Source: an uncultured Muribaculaceae bacterium (GTDB taxonomy: Bacteria > Bacteroidota > Bacteroidia > Bacteroidales > Muribaculaceae). From it: a stretch of DNA of 33,624 nucleotides. The stretch's first letter is position 1. Every line of letters begins with the position of its first letter. The DNA is taken from positions 1-33,624 of the forward strand of contig CANNVE010000028.1 of the NCBI GenBank assembly GCA_947525975.1, written 5' to 3'. Of the stretch, positions 18,563-19,570 are shown in pieces. The translations under genes were made by a program, and so were the position numbers. The notes beneath the pieces were generated by a model. The model was given only the letters and a program-made list of their open reading frames with translations. It made no database searches and was not told the origin of the DNA.

Positions 18563-19498
18563 CTATTTGAGAGAGTTGATGTCGATGATGTTGTTGAGGA
18601 CTGCGTATATGGCAAGGGCTGCGGGAGAGTGAATCTGCAGTTTTTGAGCAAGGTTGCGGCGGTGAGTCGTCACAGTGTTGACAGAAATGTTAAGGGCGTC
18701 GGCAATCTCCTTGTTTGCCATGCCTTTGGCCACGCAAGCAATTATCTCCTTCTCTCGCTGGCTCAATGGCGTAGAGTAGCCATCTTCCGCATTTTCGGCG
18801 TGCACGGGCTTCGGGCGCGATTCAACATCGGCTTCGATCTTGAGGGCCACCGGCACAAAAAGCTTATCCTCCACCATGCAGTGGGCTATGAGATCCTGCT
18901 CGCAGTTGATAATGTCAAAAAGGACGGCGTTGAGCAGATTATTCTCTTTTTGGGGCAGATATCTGATTATTATATCTTTCAGTTCGTTGAGCTTATTGTG
19001 TATGCTGTGGTGCCCTGACGCGAAGACTGATACGCTGTAGTCGCTTTCTATTTGGCCCTGAAGAAGGGATTTGACGTATTTGAATACCTTCACGTCTTCA
19101 TAATGCATGTGACGGCTGACCTCATCGACATAATCGTCATAAAATTTAAGTATGAGGAGCGCCACTTCGTCACGGCCACTGCAGTCGATGGCTTCAATGA
19201 GCTTGCGCCGTATCAACGGCAGGCAAAAATCAAGGAAATAAGAATGAGCATGCTCAAGATAGTACATCAGCGATGTCAAGTCGACACCGGCTGTGTCAAT
19301 CAGTCCGTGTGATATAAAATTGGCTACCGCAAGAAATGTAGGGCAATCAACTCCTTGATCCTTACATATTTGTTGTACAGTGGCATCACCAAAACCAAGC
19401 GATATGCCAAAACGGCTCATCGCCATCAAGAGCAATGGATTGGCGTTGATGAGCGCGCTCATCTTGTCAGATGACTTATAATGGTGCATTGCTTCCAT
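18563..19498 (-). CDS. YtfE/RIC-like di-iron hemerythrin domain fused to a LuxR-type DNA-binding domain
   Basis: A 311-residue protein that I read as a one-component sensor-regulator. Residues ~14-60 resemble the ScdA/DUF542 N-terminal module (NANPLLLMAMSRFGISLGFG), but the usual Cys-Cys pair is replaced by Gly-Phe. Residues ~75-222 form a hemerythrin-like four-helix bundle with a full set of likely di-iron ligands: H83 or H85, H130 with E134 (HMHYE), H164 (region GHHSIH), H206 with E210 (HCMVE). These spacings follow E. coli YtfE closely. Residues ~243-305 are a LuxR/GerE helix-turn-helix (LSQREKEIIACVAKGMANKE, then IADALNISVNTVTTHRRNLA). No receiver domain or histidine kinase is present. 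It likely senses nitric oxide, oxygen or iron state and controls genes directly. Target genes are unknown; it stands alone with its own promoter. Confidence 0.85.
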   Translation of the reverse strand: MEAMHHYKSSDKMSALINANPLLLMAMSRFGISLGFGDATVQQICKDQGVDCPTFLAVANFISHGLIDTAGVDLTSLMYYLEHAHSYFLDFCLPLIRRKLIEAIDCSGRDEVALLILKFYDDYVDEVSRHMHYEDVKVFKYVKSLLQGQIESDYSVSVFASGHHSIHNKLNELKDIIIRYLPQKENNLLNAVLFDIINCEQDLIAHCMVEDKLFVPVALKIEADVESRPKPVHAENAEDGYSTPLSQREKEIIACVAKGMANKEIADALNISVNTVTTHRRNLAQKLQIHSPAALAIYAVLNNIIDINSLK

Positions 19499-19511: not shown

Positions 19512-19549
19512 TTTGCGCAAAAATAGCAAATAATGTCCAATATGCCAAT
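19512..19549 (-). promoter_or_regulatory. Promoter with overlapping palindrome, RIC-LuxR gene
   Basis: On the minus strand ATTG (19549-19546), 20 bases, then TATTTTTG (19525-19518). A perfect palindrome TTTGCGCAAA (19512-19521) overlaps the -7 box and the likely start site, and could be an operator, perhaps for autoregulation. Confidence 0.6.
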
Positions 19550-19570
19550 ACTCACTTTTGGTGATTACGC

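Follow-up and report, generated by a model that had tools for sequence, protein, structure and literature searches.

A putative iron-responsive hemerythrin–LuxR one-component regulator of Muribaculaceae with a predicted operator at its own, feoAB and other promoters

We report a hemerythrin–LuxR protein encoded in the window (the whole 33,624-nt stretch of DNA analyzed here) that is probably an autoregulated iron-uptake transcription factor, one that would read iron through a di-iron site and be active at low iron. The protein is predicted to act on a 20-nt palindromic operator, which was found before the regulator gene, feoAB, TonB receptor genes and others in the family, often at a fixed distance from the -7 box. 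The hemerythrin–LuxR fusion itself is already known; what is new here is the regulon, comprising the operator and its targets. The features of the locus are collected in Table 1.

Table 1 Features annotated at the regulator locus of the window.
Feature	Coordinates	Strand	Remarks
Hemerythrin–LuxR one-component regulator CDS	18563..19498	minus	311 aa
ScdA_N/DUF542-like N-terminal region, about aa 12–70, without Cys-Cys, Cys45 invariant	19289..19465	minus	assigned by position
Hemerythrin domain, aa 80–217, predicted di-iron ligands H85, H130, E134, H163, H206, E210	18848..19261	minus	PF01814, conservation, YtfE alignment
LuxR/GerE helix-turn-helix, aa 244–299	18602..18769	minus	PF00196, E = 6.7e-20
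Predicted -7 box TATTTTTG (consensus TAnnTTTG)	19518..19525	minus	21 nt past the operator
Predicted operator AATCACCAAAAGTGAGTATT	19547..19566	minus	two mismatches to AATACYYA-N4-TRRGTATT; right end at the -33 position

Results

A hemerythrin domain and a LuxR domain in one ORF

Pfam searches of the 311-aa protein returned PF01814 (Hemerythrin; E = 2e-8, 35.2 bits against a cut-off of 25.3) and PF00196 (GerE; 70.9 bits against a cut-off of 23.5) in a single ORF, which bears out the view of an earlier note on this DNA that a YtfE/RIC-like hemerythrin domain is fused directly to a LuxR helix-turn-helix. The note had also stated that there is no receiver domain; no match to PF00072, by which a two-component response regulator would be recognized, was obtained in the 311-aa protein, and its description as a one-component regulator of gut Bacteroidales was supported. 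A hemerythrin domain together with a LuxR regulator, fused or adjacent, is one mark of the Hemerythrin-CdhR regulators of Bacteroidales, and this protein has it in the fused form. The ScdA_N label given to the N-terminal region is positional; the region has no Pfam match of its own, and the alignment with TIGR03652 begins at aa 37.

Within the 2.9-Mb genome of the window (99.9% complete, 56 contigs), this ORF gave the only PF01814 match, and three GerE matches were found, two of them above the cut-off. Pfam recognized no iron gene beside the regulator in the window, its neighbors being TatD (upstream), a pyrophosphatase (downstream) and a polyprenyl synthetase; this speaks against an iron regulator.

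Conservation of the predicted iron ligands

The conservation of the ligands was assessed in 76 distinct fused sequences, including that of the window, to which the other members are 44%–85% identical. These were obtained by translating ORFs in 111 loci, which gave 86 full-length fused proteins (the window's counted twice) and, after removal of duplicates, the 76 sequences. H85, H130, E134, H206 and E210 are each present in 76/76 and H163 in 74/76, whereas H164 and H83, both named as ligands in the earlier note, are kept in only 9/76 and 5/76, respectively. The remaining ligands of the note were thus retained, while these two are poorly conserved and need correcting, with H163 taking the place of H164. 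All six ligands were also found in 9/9 split relatives, in which the two parts are encoded by separate genes.

E. coli YtfE was the top PDB match both for a profile of the nine split relatives (E = 2.3e-5) and for a profile built from 17 hemerythrin parts (E = 0.0017). In the latter alignment H130, E134, H163, H206 and E210 correspond to YtfE H129, E133, H160, H204 and E208, and through the split relatives' profile H85 corresponds to YtfE H84, in a column common to the split and fused forms. The iron ligands of YtfE are H84, H129, E133, H160, H204 and E208 (PMC9268430). E126, the counterpart of YtfE E125, is kept in 70/76 sequences; at position 162, which corresponds to the second-shell E159 of YtfE, Glu is not retained, and His, Lys or Gly stands there in 57/76. 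Judged by ligand conservation and alignment, the hemerythrin domain of the fused regulator most likely holds a di-iron site.

The similarity to the RIC family is distant. TIGR03652 aligned with aa 37–216 at 28.6–29.4 bits, far under the cut-off of 204.7, so that by score the 311-aa protein is not a RIC member. An N-terminal DfCCgG motif is named for RIC/YtfE proteins (PMC9268430), and no Cys-Cys was found in the first 70 aa of any of the 76 fused sequences, so the loss of the pair remarked on in the earlier note extends to the whole set. Other cysteines are retained despite this loss: Cys45 (codon 19364–19366) in 76/76, Cys106 in 62/76, Cys199 in 56/76 and Cys207, which adjoins the ligand H206, in 67/76.

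Fused and split relatives

A match of any kind was found in 186 of 198 genomes of the same family, and by hand count both parts lie in one frame in about 93 of the 198; the relatives with the gene include Muribaculum caecicola and Muribaculaceae MAGs. The split form was seen in all nine loci L056–L064, where a LuxR gene comes after a hemerythrin gene that encodes about 238 aa. Hemerythrin genes with an adjacent LuxR gene were likewise present in 20/20 hand-chosen split loci of the window's family (L221–L240) and in eight of the nine phylum-level loci L112–L120, which have near full-length hemerythrin matches. The ninth, L119 (1483–2562), encodes a 359-aa hemerythrin–LuxR fusion with a longer middle that lies outside the main fused clade and is apparently an independent fusion.

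In the alignment of the LuxR partners from L056–L064 (without L056, whose frame is over-long), read by eye, the N-terminal half is receiver-like and the usual phospho-acceptor motif is absent; PF00072 fell under the cut-off in one of two partners tested. A more distant split pair, type B (L227–L240), is about 35%–38% identical and occurs in the same family, and 13 of its 14 rows form a clade of their own. A simple history of one fusion event was not borne out: the tree requires two changes for the fused state, with split type A nested inside, and its topology is compatible both with one fusion followed by splitting and with two fusions.

A few sequences stand apart. A further fused copy, G130:C1:231904-232839, has an in-frame TAA and possibly reflects decay. 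L002 and L036, whose MAGs are labeled Clostridium sp. and Roseburia sp., carry a Bacteroidales-type gene; apparently the titles are wrong or the bins mixed.

A predicted palindromic operator upstream of the fused genes

Motif discovery by expectation maximization was run on 71 of the 75 upstream regions of the fused family, four near-copies having been dropped. A width-20 palindrome was obtained with a log-likelihood of 367, compared with 130 for one shuffled set. The symmetric matrix derived from 44 sites reads AATACtCA-N4-TGaGTATT, and 44/71 of the upstream regions, which are the same regions as the training data, score at least 10 with it. We take the half-site TACYYA(T), in a 7-2-7-like array, to resemble the NarL heptamer.

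The copy in the window departs from the pattern AATACYYANNNNTRRGTATT at two positions. Since a shuffled window would by chance give about 0.5 matches at up to three mismatches, the support for this copy comes from its placement and conservation. At up to two mismatches the window's own genome has 11 such places against 7 for the control, and a lone match there is therefore weak by itself. Across 147 family genomes, the exact operator was found at 35 sites and the reversed pattern at 1. The hemerythrin–LuxR protein is predicted to bind the AATACYYA-N4-TRRGTATT palindrome.

The earlier note had pointed to another palindrome, TTTGCGCAAA at 19512–19521, as the DNA target. That sequence exists, but the window contains 30 palindromes of this kind, and this one recurs in 2/75 family upstream regions and overlaps the -7 box; it was rejected as the operator in favor of the conserved 19547–19566 element.

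Fixed spacing between the operator and the -7 box

Bacteroides promoters have TAnnTTTG at -7 and TTTG near -33 (PMC7366714). The TTTG of a -7 box begins exactly 25 nt past the operator in 31 of the 44 regulator promoters, where other offsets average 0.45. The same spacing was found in 15/25 feoAB promoters with a site scoring at least 8 (other offsets average 0.36), in seven of the eight split-operon promoters that have a site among 37 tested (0.04) and in 6/15 other hand-picked promoters (0.18); two of the misses in this last group, L142 and L155, fit the spacing in the opposite direction. With this fixed distance to the -7 box the operator extends to the -33 position, and its center is estimated to lie near -42. 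This is the promoter position of class II activators, which keep a constant spacing from the -7 box from gene to gene. The placement of the predicted operator over the -33 position suits an activator, but it could also suit a repressor.

The operator precedes feoAB in part of the family

The first hint of a target outside the regulator gene came from the window's own genome, where one of the 11 places with at most two mismatches precedes a gene with both FeoA and FeoB domains by 62 nt. FeoA loci were sought in 59 family genomes; 58 matched and 57 were used; the partial match of G083 was omitted, as was an additional weak one in G007. Scored with a matrix made from the 44 regulator-promoter sites only, 25/57 genomes had a site of at least 8 in the 200 bp preceding feoA, compared with 0/57 in the distal upstream region and 0/57 in the coding region (Fisher P = 2e-9, proximal versus distal upstream), and 23/57 had one of at least 10. 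In the other 32/57, the feoAB promoter has no site of at least 8, which counts against the iron-regulator reading.

A comparison was also made over 51 FeoA loci, 30 of the earlier set and a further 21 in whose genomes no regulator was found. Here 11.2 kb of promoter DNA contained 17 sites of at least 10 and the remaining 151.6 kb contained 4; of these four, three lie in the feoA coding sequence of regulator-less genomes (3/21 loci) and were counted against the association. A feoAB site of at least 10 occurs in 23/54 genomes with a hemerythrin regulator and in 3/24 without one (P = 0.0099), "without" meaning none found, as several of these genomes are incomplete. The 24 consist of 21 among 27 fetched genomes that had a FeoA gene, plus three from the first FeoA set. 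By regulator, and with the type A, type B or none sorting made from best E-values read by eye, the site was found in 15/34 type A genomes and 8/20 genomes with type B only. The own promoters of type B pairs score at least 8 in 0/14 (L227–L240), yet these 8/20 type-B-only genomes have a feoAB site, and other regulators may thus share the operator. Several upstream stretches in L227–L240 look coding, as within an operon. We regard the operator–feoAB association as real but not universal.

Other candidate targets and gene neighborhoods

Of the 35 exact-operator loci, 32 were inspected. The operator stood before feoAB in four, the regulator gene in five and TonB receptors in seven (six by Pfam, L265 by likeness to L264); PepSY_TM, FMN_bind and secreted protein genes followed it once each, and a porin-like protein without a Pfam match twice. 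One locus was assigned to an Asp-Al_Ex permease/ABC transporter region by likeness to L142, three to a Rex-like/SurA-like intergenic region (one by Pfam), and in seven the operator lay inside a frame or was unassigned. The Rex-like (PF06971, CoA_binding)/SurA-like loci, L252–L254, belong to one genus, and the exact palindrome between these genes may be a site of another regulator.

In the window's own genome, a site with the box at the usual spacing was found at the regulator gene, feoAB, a gene for a 589-aa secreted protein (C13:69263) and an ABC transporter gene (C2:94132). The secreted protein is homologous to others that bear the operator (L154, 38%; L255, 27% over 227 aa). This secreted family, which has no Pfam match, lies beside the operator in three genomes (L289:5426-7195, L154:1583-3019 and L255:2-1390) and is a candidate iron-related surface protein. 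The own genome and a genus mate (L142 and L155) have in common a divergent Asp-Al_Ex permease/ABC transporter region with an operator-like site; the ABC transporter side has a -7 box at the usual spacing, and the permease side has none.

Synteny was compared over 56 loci, some of them belonging to close relatives, with flanks that reach 5 kb at most and in places stop earlier at a contig end, and with gene identities from Pfam on representatives and from BLAST for the remainder. In 10/56 loci feoAB lies next to the fused gene in divergent orientation, and in 11/56 the divergent neighbor is a porin-like/imelysin (PF09375)/di-heme oxidoreductase (PF06537) operon, with a small ORF between them in L004. 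In the feoAB loci, L032, L041 and eight more, one divergent intergenic region is common to feoAB and the fused regulator; in L032 and L041 it contains two strong operator copies, which makes it a short, naturally occurring test construct. Outer-membrane proteins of a porin-like type (GGYGEA...), which Pfam does not recognize, recur beside the operator or regulator (L017:3517-4962, L004:2850-4178, L152, L262 and L031).

Among other iron regulators, the window's genome has one FUR match, weak at 27.9 bits though above the cut-off, the best matches of relatives being mostly 50–96 bits, and no DtxR-type match was found in it. HmuY promoters were tried as operator targets, hmu being the published target of CdhR, and were rejected: a site of at least 10 was present in 0/18 tested at the order level (30 loci fetched), and one site of 8.5 had a spaced box.

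Discussion

In the mechanism that we favor, the occupancy of the di-iron site, and perhaps its oxidation state, would report cellular iron. When iron falls, the site would empty or change, and the LuxR helix-turn-helix would then bind AATACYYA-N4-TRRGTATT 21 nt upstream of the -7 box, where it would activate its own gene, feoAB, TonB-dependent receptor genes and other genes. The domains, ligand set, operator, promoter spacing, targets and synteny in this scheme are read from sequence; the low-iron induction of homologous operons and the regulation of hmu by CdhR come from published papers. We infer the binding of the operator by the protein, the binding of metal, the sign of regulation and the switch.

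The identity of the signal is the first point to be weighed. The earlier note had proposed a nitric oxide, oxygen or redox switch, in which the di-iron centre reacts, DNA binding changes and the iron genes follow the demand set by stress. In favor of this view, the di-iron site of YtfE reacts with NO (PMC9268430), plant hemerythrin-like iron sensors are oxidized by O2 and H2O2 (PMC12022348), and cdhR is said to be down under microaerophilic conditions (PMC10101095). The regulon, however, gave this signal no support: no NO or O2 defense gene (Hcp, NO reductase, rubrerythrin, catalase or peroxiredoxin) was recognized among the target and neighbor proteins run through Pfam, several of which had no match at all, and those that were recognized point to iron uptake. 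Iron is the better signal because the operator lies before feoAB, TonB receptor, PepSY_TM and FMN_bind genes and because induction at low iron has been published for operons of a hemerythrin and a DNA-binding regulator, with BT_0519-20 of Bacteroides thetaiotaomicron up 16–20-fold and PG1236-37 (CdhR) of Porphyromonas gingivalis up about 7-fold (PMC10434189). A primary NO, oxygen or redox switch is on these grounds unlikely; O2 or NO could still act on the same di-iron site of an iron reader.

The sign of regulation and the role of the metal admit other readings as well. An iron-loaded repressor sitting over the -33 element would block the feoAB promoter and its own, and loss of iron would release them. 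The operator does reach the -33 position at a fixed spacing, and FeoAB is usually repressed in high iron, which we counted for repression; the unchanging spacing between operator and -7 box, seen at different genes, nevertheless resembles that of class II activators. Published descriptions of PG1237 differ, as it has been called a repressor (PMC2671838) and CdhR an activator of hmu (PMC10101095, citing Wu 2009). Taking these points together, we consider repression rather unlikely, though a reading to be kept in view. A hemerythrin domain that is metal-free and non-sensing, serving for dimerization or protein interaction while regulation follows protein level only, would fit the loss of the YtfE second-shell E159 and the very weak RIC similarity, but the retention of six ligands in 74–76 of the 76 fused sequences and in 9/9 split relatives speaks against it, and we hold it to be improbable. 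We prefer a regulator that is active at low iron, probably as an activator, and would read iron through its di-iron site.

A broader proposal, which we put forward tentatively, is that the protein reads iron directly through its hemerythrin-type di-iron site, which would make it, among prokaryotes, the counterpart of BRUTUS and FBXL5. It would then be in charge of the iron response (feoAB, TonB receptors, imelysin/di-heme oxidoreductase) in gut Bacteroidales, including genomes with only a weak Fur-family match like that of the window. Should the sensor be the hemerythrin domain, one fold would serve iron sensing in bacteria, animals and plants, and here it would be wired straight to DNA. With the operator, its promoter geometry and its targets defined, the proposal can be tested directly.

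Comparison with known systems

The closest published systems are the operons PG1236-PG1237 of P. gingivalis and BT_0519-0520 of B. thetaiotaomicron, which have the same two parts and are induced by low iron, CdhR of P. gingivalis being said to regulate hmuYR (PMC10434189); they consist of two genes, compared with one here. The split pairs examined in this work, which are other than these two operons, have a LuxR protein with a receiver-like N-terminal region, and the fused form has none. For Prevotella intermedia the same report states that "the operon is fused", naming PIN17_RS10465 in a figure legend, so the fusion is not new. PIN17_RS10465, compared here by description only, likewise joins a hemerythrin and a DNA-binding regulator in one Bacteroidales protein, and the consulted sections give no operator, regulon or ligand analysis with it (PMC10434189). 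No mention of the operator, or of feoAB as a target of a hemerythrin–LuxR protein, was found in the literature searched, a search in which the operator sequence was not a query and whose coverage leaves out most subscription papers.

With NarL/FixJ-type regulators the fused protein has the GerE helix-turn-helix in common, but it is without a receiver. With YtfE/ScdA/RIC proteins it shares the ligand set of four His and two Glu, spaced almost identically; unlike them it has no Cys-Cys, scores far below the family cut-off and carries a DNA-binding domain. Mammalian FBXL5 and plant BRUTUS/HRZ likewise link a hemerythrin-like domain to an effector in iron homeostasis: FBXL5 uses the domain for iron sensing, and plant BRUTUS holds di-iron centers in its hemerythrin-like domains that are partly labile when reduced (PMC12022348). 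These eukaryotic proteins, likened to the fused regulator by description and not by homology, have a ubiquitin ligase as their effector, in place of a DNA-binding domain.
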